From IMG/VR virus record IMGVR_UViG_3300004463_000043, positions 1 through 41,907 of that record: 41,907 nucleotides of DNA, one strand, 5' to 3'. Positions 26,161 to 41,907 of this stretch are shown here, piece after piece (within the stretch, counting starts at the first letter, position 1; every line of letters begins with the position of its first letter). A model generated the notes under the pieces. The model was not told where the DNA came from. It saw only the letters and a program-made list of their open reading frames with translations, and did not search any database. Source of the stretch: a virus. Position numbers and translations under genes: made by a program.

Positions 26161-26385
26161 CTAGGATCGACGATCTCTAGAAAGGGCTGGTGTAGGGTAG
26201 GCTAAATTATCGTTTAACCTAGAGGCTTCTGAGAGGCTTTTAAAGCCTTCTTCTATAATGACTGCTGATAGCATACTAGGATAGCTCAAGGTAGATCTGT
26301 TAGCAGACATCGTCAAGACTCTTTCATATAAAGTCTCATCTGCCCACGATATTAGCTGATCTAGACTATAGTATGTATACCACAT
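26161..26385 (-). CDS. Tiny LY-box family protein, last gene of the minus-strand operon
   Basis: 74 residues starting MWYTYYSLDQLISWADETLYERVL and reaching AVIIEEG, then an extra 27-residue tail of different composition. The core (aromatic start, W, LY box, Ile-Ile-Glu-Glu) is the family pattern described for 26386-26532. No gene follows on the minus strand, so the tail may be read-through beyond the usual family end. The ATG abuts the stop of its neighbour (TAGATG). Function unknown. Confidence 0.65.
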   Translation of the reverse strand: MWYTYYSLDQLISWADETLYERVLTMSANRSTLSYPSMLSAVIIEEGFKSLSEASRLNDNLAYPTPALSRDRRS

Positions 26386-26532
26386 CTAGACCTCTTCTAT
26401 TATACTTGTCTTAATAATGAAGTTCATGTAGTCTAAACCCCTATTTTCTAATACCCGACTTAAATGAAGTACTCTTTTGTATAGATCAGATTGTCTCCCA
26501 CTAAAACCCCACGTATAGGATATTCGCCACAT
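26386..26532 (-). CDS. Tiny LY-box family protein
   Basis: 48 residues: MWRISYTWGFSGRQ, the box SDLYKRVLHLS and an acidic end KTSIIEEV. Together with 26161-26385 and members at 35740-40617 it defines a family with an N-terminal aromatic/basic strand, an [S/N/D/T]LY-x-x-V/L box and an acidic Ile/Glu tail. The codons of IIEEV (ATA-ATA-GAA-GAG-GTC) give AGAGG as ribosome-binding site for the next ATG, 7 bases on. Too short for a standard ORF list but in-frame, coupled and conserved in pattern. Confidence 0.65.
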   Translation of the reverse strand: MWRISYTWGFSGRQSDLYKRVLHLSRVLENRGLDYMNFIIKTSIIEEV

Positions 26533-31483: not shown

Positions 31484-32296
31484 CTATTTAACCTTTATAT
31501 ATTTAGAAGACATGCAGCTCTGGCACTCTGGTTTACCGTCTATAGTCTTAATATCACGAGATGGTCTGTGTTTATCTCGACAATTTTGACAGTATCGGAC
31601 AGAAAATGACATATTATTGACAAAACTTAATATAACCTTTTCTACATTTACTGGTAGATCTTTATAGTAAGGAAGTTCCTTCATACATAGCTTTTCAGTA
31701 TCAGTTGTATCCTTAAGACCATAAGGAACCATCTTCTTTTCTACTGGTACATTACGTTCTTCTACGTCTACCCAATCATCGTCTACCATCCTGAGCTTAC
31801 CACCAAGTCCTTGTTGTTCTGATCTATAATCTAGTTTATGGCTAGCAGCTCGGAACGATTTACGACTCAGCTTCAGAATATCTATAGATGGTTTATTATC
31901 CAGACTTCCTATCTGTAAAGCTTTAGCTCTTTCATTCAATACAATAAAATCAAATTTATCGCCGTTTTGTGTAATGACTATATCAGCTTTAGATAAGACT
32001 GTATCATTAAACTCTCTAATCATTTCAGAATCATCAAAGTTTCTTGAATCATCATACTTATCATTAGTCTTATCCCATGATAAATACTTGGCTTTCTTTT
32101 CATGCATCCATTTATACTGTATGGTAATTACTTTATTAGGAACCTTGACTTGTCGATGCTGAATACTTACTTTATTACCTATATAAAAAGTCCTGACTAT
32201 CATATGACTAGTTTCAGTATCATACGTCAAGACCTTCATACCATTCTTGACAGCTTTCTTGATTAGCTCATATCTGAGGTTAGACGGTATTCTCAT
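31484..32296 (-). CDS. RNase H-like 3'-5' exonuclease with zinc ribbon
   Basis: 270 residues. The exonuclease signatures are YDTETS (Asp/Glu pair, residues about 25-28), ITQNGDKFDFIVLN (ExoII) and YGLKDTTDTEKL (ExoIII, DEDDy-like Tyr). This matches the DnaQ/PolB-type proofreading fold as a free-standing protein. The C-terminal 45 residues form a zinc ribbon (RYCQNCRDKH, PECQSC). Likely works in recombination or host DNA breakdown. Overlaps the endonuclease VII gene by four bases. Confidence 0.8.
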   Translation of the reverse strand: MRIPSNLRYELIKKAVKNGMKVLTYDTETSHMIVRTFYIGNKVSIQHRQVKVPNKVITIQYKWMHEKKAKYLSWDKTNDKYDDSRNFDDSEMIREFNDTVLSKADIVITQNGDKFDFIVLNERAKALQIGSLDNKPSIDILKLSRKSFRAASHKLDYRSEQQGLGGKLRMVDDDWVDVEERNVPVEKKMVPYGLKDTTDTEKLCMKELPYYKDLPVNVEKVILSFVNNMSFSVRYCQNCRDKHRPSRDIKTIDGKPECQSCMSSKYIKVK

Positions 32297-34760: not shown

Positions 34761-35016
34761 TCTTCACCTCTGTATATACATCGCCATTCTCTTTTATCTT
34801 TTTATCTTCATAATCTACTACAATACGTCGAGTAAATTCGCTGGCTACACAAGATAATGCACCTATCACATCGTTGATAGCTTGGTAGTTCTTTGTAGTA
34901 TTATAAAAATAGTCTTTGCATATCGTGGTCAGAAGATAATTCAATTCGCCAGCATTTTCAGGTTGTTTAGTCCCGGCTAAAATTCTATACCTTTCTGATA
35001 CTATGATATATGGCAT
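34747..35016 (-). CDS. DUF6899-like protein
   Basis: 89 residues. The sequence MPYIIVSERYRIL, GELNYLLTTICKDYF, YQAINDVIGALSCVASEFTRR and YEDKKIKENGDVY matches the pattern I recall for DUF6899: an MPYI start, GELNY, IN-x-x-IGAL and a closing YEDKKI-x-ENGDVY. Function unknown; common in phage replication operons. ATG overlaps the polymerase stop (TAATG). Confidence 0.7.
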   Translation of the reverse strand: MPYIIVSERYRILAGTKQPENAGELNYLLTTICKDYFYNTTKNYQAINDVIGALSCVASEFTRRIVVDYEDKKIKENGDVYTEVKNGRE

Positions 35017-35753
35017 TATAATTTATCCCAGCTATCAGCGACTGTTATTTCTGCTTTTGGAGTGACTAAAAGTCTCTCAGAGTAAACATTATAGCACATG
35101 TCTGGGATTTTTGCAAGTATTTCATTCAAATCTTTTTTAGCATCTTCTACGTATTCCGGCCTGCAATCAAGCATAATACTATCATGTACAGTATTAATTA
35201 ATAAGTATTTATCCCTATTATGCAGGGCTTTCTGTCTCATAAAAGCCGATAAGAATAGCGATAAGATTATAAAGGCTGTATGCTGTACAGGGTAGTTCTT
35301 GATCTCTGTTGATTTATACCCTTCCTTAAACCAACAGCCGTATTCTTCTGAGAACATCTTCGGATATCTCTTAAACTGGAGATAAATACCACTAAACATC
35401 TTAAGCTGTCCTGTCTGTCCGACTGATTTAATCCATCTATCATGTAAATCTTTAACCTTAGGAAATTGACCATAAAAAGAATCTATAAAACCCCTACACC
35501 ATTCTTCTGTATTACCTGTTTCTTCAGCTAGTGCCTTGACTCCCCGGCCATAAGACATCCCGAGAATAGGAACTTTCAGACTATTACGCTCTTCTGGTGT
35601 TACGTCTTCTTCTTTTTTATCGTACATAATCGCTGCAAAGTATTTATATATATCTGTCCCACGATTCAACAGTTCTATAAAGCCCGGATCTTTAGAAAGA
35701 GTCGCTAGTACCACGACCTCAATTTGCCGTAAATCGCAGTTAATTAGAGGCAT
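35016..35753 (-). CDS. DNA polymerase I, fragment 4 (palm/fingers)
   Basis: 245 residues holding the family A catalytic core: motif A INCDLRQIE (Asp7), the O-helix RNSLKVPILGMSYGRG (Arg56, Lys60, Tyr68; the E. coli Phe762 position is Leu64), NYPVQHTAFII and motif C TVHDSIM (His190, Asp191). It starts at MPLINCD exactly where a one-piece enzyme would continue after the VKEMFISRY of fragment 3. The start overlaps a tiny LY-box gene that supplies its AGAGG site. Fragments 1-4 total about 660 residues. Confidence 0.88.
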   Translation of the reverse strand: MPLINCDLRQIEVVVLATLSKDPGFIELLNRGTDIYKYFAAIMYDKKEEDVTPEERNSLKVPILGMSYGRGVKALAEETGNTEEWCRGFIDSFYGQFPKVKDLHDRWIKSVGQTGQLKMFSGIYLQFKRYPKMFSEEYGCWFKEGYKSTEIKNYPVQHTAFIILSLFLSAFMRQKALHNRDKYLLINTVHDSIMLDCRPEYVEDAKKDLNEILAKIPDMCYNVYSERLLVTPKAEITVADSWDKL

Positions 35754-35913
35754 CGTCTACCTCTTCTATAATTAAATATTTTAGTTGATGTGTTCTAAAA
35801 ATCATAGAATACTCAATATTAACACGCATAGCTGTATATAGTTCTTTAAAGTTAAATTGGGCTTTATTATAATCGATGGTATCAAAATCTATATTAGTAT
35901 ATCCTACCCACAT
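35740..35913 (-). CDS. Tiny LY-box family protein inside the polymerase gene
   Basis: 57 residues: MWVGYTNIDFDT, FNFKELYTAMRVNIEYS and the acidic end YLIIEEVDDASN. It lies between polymerase fragments 3 and 4 with the zinc-ribbon gene. The codons for IIEEV contain GAAGAGGT, placed six bases before the ATG of fragment 4, so this gene carries the ribosome-binding site of the catalytic core. Overlap with fragment 4 is 14 bases. Function unknown. Confidence 0.65.
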   Translation of the reverse strand: MWVGYTNIDFDTIDYNKAQFNFKELYTAMRVNIEYSMIFRTHQLKYLIIEEVDDASN

Positions 35914-35920
35914 AAATCAC

Positions 35921-36085
35921 CTACTTAGTTGTATCAATAATAAACAATTTTGGAGGTTCTATTTTAATACATTTATCACACAAATAGAATTTCCACGTAC
36001 TAAGTCCGTACCCAGCTAAAGAATCTTTATAACATTCTGTAGCATATCCTAACAAAATCTTAGCACATGTTTGACAACACTTCAT
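35921..36085 (-). CDS. Zinc ribbon protein between polymerase fragments
   Basis: 54 residues: MKCCQTCAKILLG, and later KFYLCDKCIKIEPP, two CXXC knuckles for one zinc. It begins with ATGA overlap on the stop of polymerase fragment 3 and ends seven bases before the LY-box gene at 35913. Zinc-ribbon proteins are frequent in phage operons, but one between catalytic fragments of a polymerase is odd. It might bind DNA or the polymerase. No family recognised. Confidence 0.65.
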   Translation of the reverse strand: MKCCQTCAKILLGYATECYKDSLAGYGLSTWKFYLCDKCIKIEPPKLFIIDTTK

Positions 36086-36330
36086 ATATACCTACTGATA
36101 AACATCTCTTTGACCTTAGCTTTCTTAACGCTCGGTGTTTGTTGAAAATCTCCTGAGAGTCTACCTGTGACGGTACTACAGTGATGAAAGCTTAACCTGA
36201 CACATCCGTCTGGATAGATTTGATCTTCTAGTCTGATATAATAAGTCGATAGCATTTTATTCAATCTTCTGACTTTAATTAAAGTCTGGATGAATTTGAC
36301 TGAATCATCAGAGAGTTTATTCTTTATCAT
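36082..36330 (-). CDS. DNA polymerase I, fragment 3 (thumb tip to palm start)
   Basis: 82 residues: VKFIQTLIKVRRLNKMLSTYY, then CVRLSFHHCSTVTGRLSG and SVKKAKVKEMFISRYI. This is the family A stretch before motif A, with the TGRLS motif that contacts template and primer. The last residues SRY normally lead into a short loop and motif A; here a stop follows and fragment 4 starts with motif A. It overlaps the tiny gene before it by 14 bases. Confidence 0.82.
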   Translation of the reverse strand: MIKNKLSDDSVKFIQTLIKVRRLNKMLSTYYIRLEDQIYPDGCVRLSFHHCSTVTGRLSGDFQQTPSVKKAKVKEMFISRYI

Positions 36331-36511
36331 TGTATGCTATCCATGTCTGTCCATTGTTATAGTAGTTATTCTCTTCTCTAAATTTGTCTGTGTCCAATAT
36401 AGCATGCTTAGTGATCTTAAAAAGCCCAACACCTAACTCAGAGTATAGTACAAACACTCTTAAAGTAGTGTATAGATCTGGGTTACAATTATACCAATTT
36501 TTAATCTTCAT
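36317..36511 (-). CDS. Tiny LY-box family protein inside the polymerase gene
   Basis: 64 residues: MKIKNWYNCNPDLYTTLRVFVLYSE, with the W and DLY box near the start and an extra tail (FREENNYYNNGQTWIAYNDKE) that might be a second degenerate copy. It is not a polymerase segment: fragment 2 ends GERDED and fragment 3 starts at DDSVKFIQ, which join in a normal enzyme. The start is preceded by GGGGAAAGAG, encoded by the last codons of fragment 2. Overlaps are 11 and 14 bases. Confidence 0.62.
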   Translation of the reverse strand: MKIKNWYNCNPDLYTTLRVFVLYSELGVGLFKITKHAILDTDKFREENNYYNNGQTWIAYNDKE

Positions 36512-36794
36512 CTCTTTCCCCGATAATAAGACTTAAGACTTTAAAATTAGTCTGAAAGACTCCTTCATTCTTAGTCGCCCAGCTAGCTTTCGGTTGTATC
36601 CCAAGACCTTTAATATTCACTTCTTTCACGACAGTCTGCATCTTTACTTGTCCTTGTCTGTCTCCAGTCTTGAATGTATAAAGAGTCCCATCTGGATTAA
36701 ATACAGGTTGTTTAGTCTCTACTTCTAGTTTACCACCGTACAGAAGTAAGGAGAGGTGTTTAGGACTATTTATATTAAATTCTGGTAATTTCAT
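36501..36794 (-). CDS. DNA polymerase I, fragment 2 (thumb)
   Basis: 97 residues from ATG at 36794, which overlaps the stop of fragment 1 (ATGA). MKLPEFNINSPKHLSLLLYGG is the classic F-N-I-N-S-P-K-x-L start of the family A thumb/palm, followed by YTFKTGDRQGQVK and NEGVFQTNFKVLSLI. A TTG at 36803 would also fit and would be the product of a -1 shift on fragment 1. Without the overlap this would be one gene with fragment 1. Confidence 0.82.
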   Translation of the reverse strand: MKLPEFNINSPKHLSLLLYGGKLEVETKQPVFNPDGTLYTFKTGDRQGQVKMQTVVKEVNIKGLGIQPKASWATKNEGVFQTNFKVLSLIIGERDED

Positions 36795-37498
36795 ACTTTC
36801 CAATACCTTTCTATTAAACCTTTCAGATCTTGTTCATGCTGTGCTAATTCAGCCTGCAACTCCGTCTTATTTCGTACAAGTGTATTTTTATTGACTTTAA
36901 ATCCATTATACTCCATCTCAATCGTACTCAAGAGTAGATCATTCTGTATCTCGATAGTCCGTCTGAACTCTTTTCCTCGAATATCTGTCTCTTTCTGCTG
37001 TTCTATATAAATCTTATATGTATCTAAAACGTCATTCTTTACATCTTCTAAGACTAAATCTTCTGGTATATCTGAAGTATCTATACCCTGCTTCCAATAC
37101 TCTTCCATCTTCTTCTCTCGGACTGGGCAGCCGTATTTAGTCGTAGCTAACTCTCGAAGTGCTGCGAATTGAGTCTGGTAGTTTGATAGATAATATTCAG
37201 CTAATTGTGTACAGTAAATCTTACCGCCCTTCCTAAGCCAGTCTTGTATCTTGTCATACTCCCAGAGATATAGCATCTCGAACTTAGCATTATGTGCAAC
37301 AATCAAATCATGTCTGCATAACTCTGTAACCAAATCTTCTATATATTCTGATCTTAAGGAAGAATCGGTATAGTGTGTCTCCTGTCTCTGACTGTCTTTT
37401 ATAGAATAGGCGACTATGTCGTTATAAAGAAAATTCGCCGTACGATTATACCGACTGTCTGTATTAGTTTCGATGTCTAGTATAATGAAGTTAGTCAT
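36791..37498 (-). CDS. DNA polymerase I, fragment 1 (3'-5' exonuclease and thumb base)
   Basis: 235 residues. ExoI LDIET (Asp8, Glu10), ExoII LIVAHNAKFEMLYL (Asn70, with Glu74 where Asp is common) and a weak ExoIII EDVKNDVLDT (Asp156; the Tyr expected four residues earlier is Asp152). The end, STIEMEYNGFKVNKNTL, is the start of the polymerase domain. Proofreading may be altered by the missing Tyr. A tiny gene overlaps its start by four bases (ATGA). Confidence 0.85.
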   Translation of the reverse strand: MTNFIILDIETNTDSRYNRTANFLYNDIVAYSIKDSQRQETHYTDSSLRSEYIEDLVTELCRHDLIVAHNAKFEMLYLWEYDKIQDWLRKGGKIYCTQLAEYYLSNYQTQFAALRELATTKYGCPVREKKMEEYWKQGIDTSDIPEDLVLEDVKNDVLDTYKIYIEQQKETDIRGKEFRRTIEIQNDLLLSTIEMEYNGFKVNKNTLVRNKTELQAELAQHEQDLKGLIERYWKV

Positions 37499-37644
37499 AG
37501 GTCGTAAATGTCTAGCTTTGTATTATATCCTTCGTGCCTTATAATTTCTACTAGTGCTGAGTATAGTGTGGTATTATGTAACCATCGTTGGTGTATACTA
37601 TTTGCCTGTCCATATCTCCAGATTATAATGTTTTTATTCATCAT
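37495..37644 (-). CDS. Tiny LY-box family protein
   Basis: 49 residues: MMNKNIIIWRYGQ, the box NTTLYSALVEIIRHEGYN and an acidic end LDIYDL. It follows two similar genes and precedes polymerase fragment 1, joined by ATGA. The aromatic start, LY box and acidic tail match the family. No standard motif. GAAGGA before the start lies about ten bases away. Confidence 0.6.
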   Translation of the reverse strand: MMNKNIIIWRYGQANSIHQRWLHNTTLYSALVEIIRHEGYNTKLDIYDL

Positions 37645-37771
37645 GTATAATAAATCCTTCATCTTCTCCAGACCTGTTTACTAATTCAAGTATAATTGTA
37701 TAAAGATTTGAATGAGTATTCCAGTTCAAATATGGCTTTTCTGTAGTGCCGTAACTCCAGAATTTACTCAA
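37634..37771 (-). CDS. Tiny LY-box family protein, TTG start
   Basis: 45 residues: (M)SKFWSYGTTEKPYLNW, then SNLYTIILELVN and the acidic end FIIHDE. The start codon is TTG, sharing bases with the TGA of the previous gene (TTGA). Family resemblance is in W, LY box and acidic tail. It overlaps the next gene by 11 bases. Confidence 0.55.
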   Translation of the reverse strand: MSKFWSYGTTEKPYLNWNTHSNLYTIILELVNRSGEDEGFIIHDE

Positions 37772-37920
37772 TCTGATATCTCGATATAATACAACCAGTG
37801 TATTTGCTCACTATTCCAGTCGACACACCTTCTAATCAGATGGTATAAATAATTGTCTCTTATTCCTGATGAACTATACCTACCAGTGACGTGTTTGTAT
37901 TTGTATGTCCACTTACTCAT
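37768..37920 (-). CDS. Tiny LY-box family protein
   Basis: 50 residues: MSKWTYKYKHVTGRYSSSG, then NYLYHLIRRCVDW and YYIEISD. Starts eight bases inside the end of the exonuclease gene (37913). Aromatic/basic start, LY box and acidic tail fit the family. No catalytic motif. First of three consecutive tiny genes that fill the gap before the polymerase. Confidence 0.6.
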   Translation of the reverse strand: MSKWTYKYKHVTGRYSSSGIRDNYLYHLIRRCVDWNSEQIHWLYYIEISD

Positions 37921-38455
37921 CTTTAAACTTCTCTAAAAGCCGTCTATATAGCAAAAATGTGTTAATTGCATCATATTTAGCATCATGCTTACGGCCTTGA
38001 AACTCTAATCCCATCCGCTGCATACTCTTACCTAATCCTGACTGGTGCTTAAGACCTAGTGCAAAACATCTGCTGACGAAACAAGTTTTAGCATCTATCC
38101 ATCTACGACCAAAGATATATTTCTCATTGTCTAATCTTAAAGCCCTTCTAAGATCGTCTGAATCTCCTCCACCCCATGTTAAACAATTCCTGAAGCATTT
38201 GTATTCTGTATGTAATTGACAGATATGCTGATAAGCTTCTTCGAGACTAATTCCTTCTTCTTCGATATGCTGGTCTGTAATGCCAGTAAGTCCTACAATA
38301 AACTCTGATATCTGTTCATTGACTTTAATATAATAACTAGCAGATTCTAGTATGACTCCAGTCTGAAGATTGCCGACAGCTATACCGATCTGTATAATAG
38401 ATTGACTTGGCTGATTATATTCCATGTCTAGACTCATTATATTCTGGTCAATCAT
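37913..38455 (-). CDS. DnaQ/RNase T-like DEDDh 3'-5' exonuclease
   Basis: 180 residues. ExoI MSLDMEYNQ (Asp, Glu), GLTGITDQHIEEEG, then CLTWGGGDSDDL (ExoII-like) and HDAKYDAINTFLLYR (H-x-A-x-x-D-A, ExoIII of the DEDDh type). IDAKTCFVSR lies before it. These enzymes trim single strands or RNA. It overlaps the AAA+ gene by eight bases, so the two are translated together. Clear family, precise substrate unknown. Confidence 0.85.
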   Translation of the reverse strand: MIDQNIMSLDMEYNQPSQSIIQIGIAVGNLQTGVILESASYYIKVNEQISEFIVGLTGITDQHIEEEGISLEEAYQHICQLHTEYKCFRNCLTWGGGDSDDLRRALRLDNEKYIFGRRWIDAKTCFVSRCFALGLKHQSGLGKSMQRMGLEFQGRKHDAKYDAINTFLLYRRLLEKFKDE

Positions 38456-40109: not shown

Positions 40110-40484
40110 CTAGTCTGCTGTCCGTTGGATCTTATTCAGGCGATGTTCGACTTGGATCGTTACTACTGCATCGGACTCGGCTGGAATAATAAAAGCTTCG
40201 TGCTCTTCGTGTGTCAGAGGTACTTCTTGCGCTGTCTTAAGATACTTGACAGTCTCTTGTACATCTTTATTGCATAATAAAGTGGCTGAATTATCCTTAA
40301 GCTTGTGTTCATGTCCGCTGACTTCTCCATAAGCTAGTATAATCCGTCCTTCCTTCTTAAAGTCTACCTTCGTCTTGAGATTTAAGCCAAACAACCTTGC
40401 TTTAGTTTCAGGTCTTAACTTTAGATGATCCTTTCGTGTAATAAGTACATCACCCTGTCTACCTTGTGTTTTCATCTTCTTCAT
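40110..40484 (-). CDS. Conserved hypothetical partner of the DUF6745 gene
   Basis: 124 residues: TQGRQGDVLITRKDH, then RIILAYGEVSGHEHKLKDN and EHEAFIIPAESDAVVTIQVEH. The QGDVL opening and AYGEV-x-GHEH loop recall, from memory, the small proteins often placed near DUF6745 genes in bacteria and phages; a His-rich metal site is possible. The function is unknown. Its start (ATG with GAGG six bases before) overlaps the end of the tiny gene at 40459. Confidence 0.65.
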   Translation of the reverse strand: MKKMKTQGRQGDVLITRKDHLKLRPETKARLFGLNLKTKVDFKKEGRIILAYGEVSGHEHKLKDNSATLLCNKDVQETVKYLKTAQEVPLTHEEHEAFIIPAESDAVVTIQVEHRLNKIQRTAD

Positions 40485-40617
40485 TCTTCACCTCATAATT
40501 AATATCGTAATCAACACCTGTCGTTACTAAATAAGCACTATGTCTTACACTACTATATAAACTTTTATCATAAAACCATCCAGTATCTCTTGTTTTTAAA
40601 GTAGATACTTTCCACAT
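40459..40617 (-). CDS. Tiny LY-box family protein
   Basis: 52 residues from ATG at 40617, chosen because MWKV is a shared family start and this ATG lies just after the DUF6745 stop: MWKVSTLKTRDTGWFYD, KSLYSSVRHSAYLVTT and an acidic end (NYEVKNEEDEN). A longer frame from 40698 would overlap the DUF6745 gene by 62 bases. Its codons for YEV contain GAGGTGAAGA before the next ATG. Best member for comparing with 39393. Confidence 0.65.
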   Translation of the reverse strand: MWKVSTLKTRDTGWFYDKSLYSSVRHSAYLVTTGVDYDINYEVKNEEDENTR

Positions 40618-40636: not shown

Positions 40637-41907
40637 TTAAGTCTCGACATCAGGGCAGTACTCATCTCCATATAACCCGTGTGTACTAGAGACAGCATTA
40701 TGACACGTCATCTCTTGTGGTTCTCCATATCCTAATACCAGATCTCCATCTCTGTCAAGCTCTCCTGTAGCCCACATCGGTCTCAATTCAGGATGTACTT
40801 GTAAGAAATACATTTTATAAACTGGGTTTCCTTTTTCATCTAGATCTACGATAAACTTCCCCGATTCCTTGATATTCCTGACAAACGTCTTACCATCCTT
40901 AGAGACTAAATCTCCTGTATTCCTGTACTTTCTCTTAATATCTGCTTGTTGTACGTCTGAATAAGTATCTAAAGCTCTCCATTCTATTTCTTCCTTTTCA
41001 TACCTGCCATTAGGTGTAGAGTTAGTAACAAATACACCTGTGAGTGTTTCTCCATCAGGTAAAGCTTTTCTGACTAGCTTACGAAGTCTTCCCATAGAAT
41101 CGAAGTCAGTATGTAAGACAGTAACACGAGAGTCTTCCATATATTTCTGAATACCGAATATTTCTAGTGCTGCACGCTGTACTTCTTGATTCTGGATGCT
41201 ATCTATATAATCTGCTGTTAATGTCTCTGGTTTATGAAATAGACGCTCACATACATCCTTCGGAAGATTTGCCTTAACTGCATACTCATCATGTGGAATA
41301 TGCAATCCATGCCAGTAATACAGCTTCATATAATTCTGACCTTCTATAATCTCTTTAAGATCAGTCTCTATAATCTCAGTCTCAAGTGCAAAACCTGTAT
41401 CCGAGTGTAGACGCTGATTAAAGTCTAGTTTATAATTAGGATTGATTCTAAGCTTGTTCATATCTTTTGTATCCTCTCTATTATAATGTATAGCTGGTCC
41501 ATTCTCTGAATGGAGTCTTCCGTTAAAATCTAAATTAATCTTTGACGGCCTATCTGTCATGAATACTACACCTTCCAAACACCAATAATACCCTGAACTT
41601 TGATTTAATTCTAAGTAATTCCTGTCTATCTCTATACCACAAACTTCATTAAAATAATCTGCCCAACTACTATACCAACACCATAAACTACCTCCAAAGT
41701 ATGCACGTCCAGCACTATATACGGCACTATCTACGGCACTATTGACGGCACTATTGACGGCACTATATACGGCACTATTGACGGCACTATTGACGGCACT
41801 ATTGACGGCACTATTGACGGCACTATTGACGGCACTACCTACGGCAATATTGATGGCACTATATACGGCACTACCTACGGCACTATCTACGACACTACCT
41901 ACGGCAC
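40637..41907 (-). CDS. DUF6745 protein with N-terminal tetrapeptide repeat, 5' end outside window
   Basis: 422 residues are visible and the frame is open at the right edge, so the N-terminus is missing. The first 65 residues are VNSA-type tetrapeptides. Then follow YFGGSLWCWYSSWADYFNEVCG, LEGVVFMTDRPSKIN, GRLHSENGPAIHY, LYYWHGLHIPHDEYA, EIFGIQKYMEDS and GVFVTNSTPNGRY, the order I associate with DUF6745, also found after similar repeats in bacteria. Function unknown. The TTG at 41578 is internal, not the start. It precedes a conserved small neighbour. Confidence 0.82.
   Translation of the reverse strand, partial: AVGSVVDSAVGSAVYSAINIAVGSAVNSAVNSAVNSAVNSAVNSAVYSAVNSAVNSAVDSAVYSAGRAYFGGSLWCWYSSWADYFNEVCGIEIDRNYLELNQSSGYYWCLEGVVFMTDRPSKINLDFNGRLHSENGPAIHYNREDTKDMNKLRINPNYKLDFNQRLHSDTGFALETEIIETDLKEIIEGQNYMKLYYWHGLHIPHDEYAVKANLPKDVCERLFHKPETLTADYIDSIQNQEVQRAALEIFGIQKYMEDSRVTVLHTDFDSMGRLRKLVRKALPDGETLTGVFVTNSTPNGRYEKEEIEWRALDTYSDVQQADIKRKYRNTGDLVSKDGKTFVRNIKESGKFIVDLDEKGNPVYKMYFLQVHPELRPMWATGELDRDGDLVLGYGEPQEMTCHNAVSSTHGLYGDEYCPDVET
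41711..41902 (-). repeat. Sixteen tandem 12-bp coding repeats
   Basis: Sixteen uninterrupted 12-base units run in frame in the DUF6745 gene, plus a partial unit at the window edge. Read on the minus strand, the common unit is GTCAATAGTGCC (VNSA), with variants giving VYSA, VDSA, VGSA, VGSV and INIA. Five identical VNSA units stand together. Only the third and fourth codon groups vary, so the pattern S-A-V-x is kept. Likely expands and shrinks by slippage. The array continues beyond the edge. Confidence 0.9.

Follow-up and report, generated by a model that had tools for sequence, protein, structure and literature searches.

A viral family A DNA polymerase gene apparently cut in steps into four cistrons

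Results

One family A DNA polymerase laid out over four frames

The stretch of viral DNA analysed here, hereafter the window, is 41,907 nucleotides long and corresponds to positions 1 to 41,907 of the IMG/VR record IMGVR_UViG_3300004463_000043. On its minus strand, from 37498 to 35016, one family A DNA polymerase occupies four successive frames of 235 + 97 + 82 + 245 = 659 residues, which carry in order the exonuclease and thumb base, the thumb, the TGRLS segment and the palm/fingers. The reading that we favour, and hold to be rather probable, is that a PolA gene was cut stepwise into four cistrons of one operon, the pieces being translated separately and the chains forming a working polymerase. 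Two-gene phage PolA is already known, but the sequences and papers searched contained no family A polymerase in four pieces, so the four-gene form is apparently new. A replicative enzyme would be expected to withstand fragmentation, and a bacterial-virus polymerase encoded by four genes would show how far such an enzyme can be cut and yet kept.

All pieces and inserts lie on the minus strand. Piece 1 (P0001; 36791-37498, 235 aa) holds the 3'-5' exonuclease domain and the thumb base and ends in ERYWKV and a stop; piece 2 (P0002; 36501-36794, 97 aa counted from the ATG at 36794) is the thumb, with FNINSPKHL; piece 3 (P0004; 36082-36330, 82 aa) is the TGRLS segment; and piece 4 (P0007; 35016-35753, 245 aa) is the palm/fingers, with motif A (DLRQIE), the O-helix R/K/Y and motif C (HDS). 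In PHROG profile searches, pieces 1 and 2 match phrog_9556, a DNA polymerase, at 1.9e-40 and 1.2e-5, and pieces 3 and 4 match phrog_17 at 2e-13 and 2.5e-43, piece 3 also matching Pfam DNA_pol_A at 8.3e-8; these E-values for exonuclease, thumb, TGRLS segment and palm exclude chance matching. The matches are collinear over the pieces, at 2-245, 253-323 and 366-431 for phrog_9556 and at 12-50, 63-148 and 152-380 for Pfam DNA_pol_A. Piece 4 keeps the invariant R56, K60, H190 and D191 and nearly all near-invariant residues, among them D7, E12, Y68, N153 and Q157, its AF2 model is confident (pLDDT 94.9, pTM 0.89), and Foldseek aligns it with Taq and Klenow structures (E about 1e-14, TMq 0.73-0.77). 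Family A membership is supported by these structural matches, by the retention of D7, R56, K60, Y68, H190 and D191, and by a Pfam DNA_pol_A match at 2.9e-31. The preliminary description of this DNA had proposed four collinear minus-strand frames of about 660 residues, broken between conserved blocks, and both points stand; the breaks map near residues 268, 375 and 468 of T7 gp5, which is likewise a family A phage polymerase but a single chain.

That description had also placed whole tiny genes in two of the breaks. The two breaks hold, but the inserts number three: insert 1 in break 2 (36317-36511, 64 aa), and in break 3 both insert 2a (35921-36085), a Cys-rich ORF of 54 aa with two CxxC pairs, and insert 2b (35740-35913, 57 aa). 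None of the three matched a known family above chance in PHROG or Pfam. Their G+C content (0.27-0.32) is below that of the polymerase pieces (0.35-0.37).

Junctions and translation signals

There is a start codon at every junction and most junctions overlap, in agreement with the earlier claim that each piece has its own start with a stop/start overlap. Break 1, between pieces 1 and 2, is a 4-nt ATGA overlap; insert 1 overlaps its two neighbours by 11 and 14 nt; insert 2a is preceded by a 4-nt overlap, insert 2b by a 7-nt gap and the palm piece by a 14-nt overlap. Because most neighbouring genes of this operon overlap (at 30 of the 41 junctions between listed minus-strand genes), the overlaps within polA match the style of the genome.

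Piece 2 is preceded by an AAGG Shine-Dalgarno sequence located within piece 1, and the 3' end of insert 2b bears both the GAGGT Shine-Dalgarno sequence and the start codon of piece 4. For piece 3 the Shine-Dalgarno scan returned no clear candidate, and coupled reinitiation is therefore its likely route. We infer that translation is coupled along the operon, each piece probably being translated separately through stop/start-coupled reinitiation.

Break 1 is shared with the nearest relative

In searches for relatives, from which near-identical records were excluded, the nearest polymerase was that of L001 (IMGVR_UViG_3300049846_000972), a 48-kb IMG/VR contig. Single-protein scans gave no other near relative for the polymerase and none for the ATPase; by terminase the nearest is L008 (62%), a fragment that lacks a polymerase, and no close relative was found among the genome contigs.

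The exonuclease of L001 is also a separate ORF, 44% identical to piece 1, and the two exonuclease ORFs stop at the same residue (ERYWKV in the window, GRYWLV in L001). The thumbs are 47% identical. L001 differs from the window in that thumb, TGRLS segment and palm form a single ORF of 421 aa, which has no nearby ATG and for which a TTG start is proposed. The offset to the next frame after break 1 is -1 in the window and +1 in L001, and the slippery heptamer X XXY YYZ is absent from the window's break 1 overlap; on these grounds a programmed frameshift at break 1 was rejected. A break at the same residue but with another frame offset argues for a real gene split and not for a conserved frameshift, and we read break 1 as an old split inherited by both the window and L001. 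It aligns near residues 264-268 of T7 gp5, a neighbourhood that in T7 contains the thioredoxin-binding insertion, so the site tolerates insertion.

Break 3 recurs in many phages

At break 3, piece 3 ends in MFISRYI and a stop, and piece 4 begins MPLINCDLRQIE. The window shares with split phage PolA of the Zobellviridae type a polymerase in at least two ORFs, cut immediately ahead of motif A. The split recurs across dozens of viral contigs, as well as in the isolated phages MEP401, VP41s3, Rostov-5342 and ICP2; when all fetched contigs were searched with a profile, most relatives had two ORFs, of about 390 and 243 aa, parted just before motif A. The premise that split polymerases are rare thus fails at break 3, the arrangement being frequent in one group of phages and previously described for MEP401 and MEP402 (PMC10580990).

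In these two Methylophilales phages (Zobellviridae) the polymerase is encoded by ORF13 and ORF15 with the small ORF14 between them, and the authors left the involvement of an intron open (PMC10580990). As in the window, the cut in a family A polymerase falls after the TGRLS segment and ahead of motif A, at an identical residue position and with a tiny gene between the halves; unlike the window, they have two pieces only and sit on a separate branch of the tree, and the 77-aa protein encoded between the two pieces shows no evident resemblance to the window inserts. The first ORF of MEP401-type contigs ends in LF.SRYGE and a stop and the second starts M[LI]LNADAK.LEW, which is the position of the window cut. 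A second group, comprising VP41s3, Rostov-5342, ICP2 and contigs L046-L050, is cut about a dozen residues earlier. The three Vibrio phages of this group (VP41s3 and ICP2 belong to Zobellviridae) resemble the window in having a family A polymerase cut before motif A, here into two genes, and differ from it in the earlier cut and in an unbroken exonuclease and thumb; at the cut they carry an 86-aa gene (VP41s3), an HNH endonuclease (ICP2) or no insert (Rostov-5342).

Break 3 spacers without any gene, of 3-9 bases, were seen in L046 and Rostov-5342 (9 nt), and others range from single tiny genes up to 1.86 kb with several genes, some of which encode an oxygenase-like protein or HNH-like endonucleases, as named from their sequences. 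The 9-nt gap of Rostov-5342 together with the multi-gene spacers favours true separate genes, and cuts that persist without any insert separate gene fission from invasion by an intron or endonuclease. In MEP401-type relatives the tiny ORF beside the palm gave dN/dS values of 0.03-0.33 for pairs with enough synonymous changes, which points to purifying selection on most of these ORFs.

Three further observations concern the same region. The multi-gene spacers (L137:5486-7344, L145:3435-4935, L147:2800-4021) look like a recurrent cargo site within polA. A gene for a small protein of the pattern EEA...EFS..IL..G...VL..L..A..EL.. adjoins the palm gene in L066-L126, L139-L147 and L127:7276-7509, and this palm-adjacent protein of the MEP401-type phages may partner the split polymerase. 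Finally, the palm ORF at L086:289-1050 is seemingly cut again, by an in-frame stop that falls between positions 522 and 546 of the profile.

Tree of the polymerases and order of the cuts

Break 2, whose spacer of about 170 nt is occupied by the overlapping ORF of insert 1, has no counterpart in any relative compared. The same splits occur elsewhere only in part: break 1 in L001, break 3 in many relatives, break 2 in none.

A tree of 63 polymerases joins the window to L001 (support 0.92) and this pair to the uncut AlteroR8W, L044 and L045 (support 0.964), with the MEP401 and VP41s3/Rostov groups placed elsewhere. With the window and L001 beside uncut relatives, break 3 of the window is best taken as independent in origin and not as one split event shared with the MEP401 or Icepovirus group; by the positions of the split groups, the tree calls for three or more origins of the cut before motif A. 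The loop before motif A has thus been cut repeatedly and independently, and the breaks have separate histories. The cutting of the gene into separately encoded pieces is well supported, and these comparisons also show the history of the breaks: polA would have been cut, one step after another, into four cistrons that share one polycistronic operon. Break 1 probably came first, in the common ancestor with L001, and breaks 2 and 3 later, in the lineage of the window, where tiny phage genes now occupy both. Taken with L001, the two-piece phages and the relatives that are uncut, the window completes a graded series of one, two and four pieces, and the tree gives an order of cuts that reconstitution could test.

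Discussion

State of the enzyme

The preliminary description held that no catalytic block is lost. This is true of the core polymerase residues, which are present; however, PNLQN, which should follow the retained TGRLS, is gone, the Asp of exonuclease motif II is Glu (the D and E of motif I and the D of motif III are kept), and the O-helix Phe is Leu. The PNLQN block and the O-helix Phe/Tyr are conserved, not catalytic in themselves. Among columns at least 90% conserved in the relatives, the joined chain of the window keeps 52 of 73 (71%); L001 keeps 66 of 74 such columns (89%) and the others, two distant outgroups aside, 76-100%. None of the 21 lost residues falls in the thumb piece. Given this unusual loss, partial decay of the polymerase is possible.

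Decay is the main rival to assembly of a working enzyme: the polymerase would be degenerating under relaxed selection, with replication carried out by the host or by a polymerase encoded outside the record. The missing conserved residues and the changes in PNLQN and exonuclease motif II fit such a state, as do two further 3'-5' exonucleases in the genome, at 37913-38455 (RNase_T) and 31484-32296 (PolB-exonuclease-like). These enzymes might, as a speculation, supply proofreading. The record is moreover linear and probably incomplete, its right end falling inside a gene, so another replication gene could be missing from it. Against decay, every piece remains open despite great divergence, with a start codon at each junction; the invariant and nearly all near-invariant palm residues are kept in a confidently modelled palm; and the record yielded no second DNA polymerase, whether of family A, B or C. 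On balance we regard decay as unlikely.

We favour the assembly of a working enzyme, in which the four chains would probably bind along the original fold, the cuts lying at exposed loops. Split phage polymerases have a precedent in gp43A/gp43B of Aeromonas phage 25, which co-purify and are active (PMC2988022), and it is because of this precedent that reassembly of the window pieces into an active enzyme seems probable. As in the window, the polymerase is cut into separate polypeptides; unlike in the window, the enzyme is of family B and in two pieces, and is associated with a seg endonuclease or an untranslated spacer. The literature searched contained no papers on reconstituted split Taq or Klenow. 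A further variant, in which the interposed tiny proteins, encoded alongside the pieces in one operon, serve as extra subunits or fillers of a four-subunit polymerase, holding the pieces or replacing lost contacts such as PNLQN, strikes us as improbable.

A whole chain or an artefact?

Could a whole chain still be made, the inserts being spliced out as introns or bypassed by the ribosome, or the frames joined by programmed frameshifting? Group I introns are known from phage polA genes, as cited in PMC10580990, and the ICP2 record annotates its polymerase as joined across the HNH gene. Nevertheless, Rfam gave no intron match at gathering or relaxed threshold and the inserts belong to no endonuclease family in PHROG or Pfam, on which grounds interruption by a group I intron or homing endonuclease was rejected. 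The spacers are also short and filled by overlapping ORFs, the frame offsets at break 1 are unlike in the window and L001, the gap in Rostov-5342 leaves an intron no room, and the ORFs interposed in relatives are mostly under purifying selection; we consider a whole chain quite improbable. That one or more breaks arose by assembly or sequencing error, or in a chimera, is very improbable. The contig derives from a metagenome, break 2 stands alone, and the exclusion of near-identical records from the searches adds to the doubt; yet independent contigs and isolates also show breaks 1 and 3, the start codons of pieces 3 and 4 overlap the preceding stop, insert 2b sets the Shine-Dalgarno sequence ahead of piece 4, and the pieces are similar in G+C. 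With no intron signature, two of three splits shared or repeated and the breaks in loops, division into four polypeptides, as first proposed, is still the best reading.

Other tiny genes of the window

Insert 2b has a predicted beta-beta-alpha-beta fold (AF2 pLDDT 75), and its model resembles numerous uncharacterised proteins, about 50 aa long, from phages, at E-values short of significance. It is related to several other tiny genes of the same phage (shuffle test z=3.0); insert 1 is not significantly related to them (z=-0.05) and is therefore not counted in a tiny-gene family. Tiny genes of about 45-75 aa are dispersed among the other genes (26161-26532, 35740-35913, 37495-37771, 40459-40617) and look like a diverged family, with an M.W start, a central LY and an I-E-rich end. 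As a set, eleven of them gave z=4.6 in the shuffle test, with about six individually supported, insert 2b included. A single family for all eleven, suggested by the LY shared by eye, was rejected: leave-one-out HMMs back few members, dipeptide sharing is unremarkable and pairwise shuffling backs about six. At 41664-41905, within the gene truncated by the right end, lies a twelve-base tandem repeat (GCACTATTGACG-like), which codes for a VGSAVNSA-type repeat.
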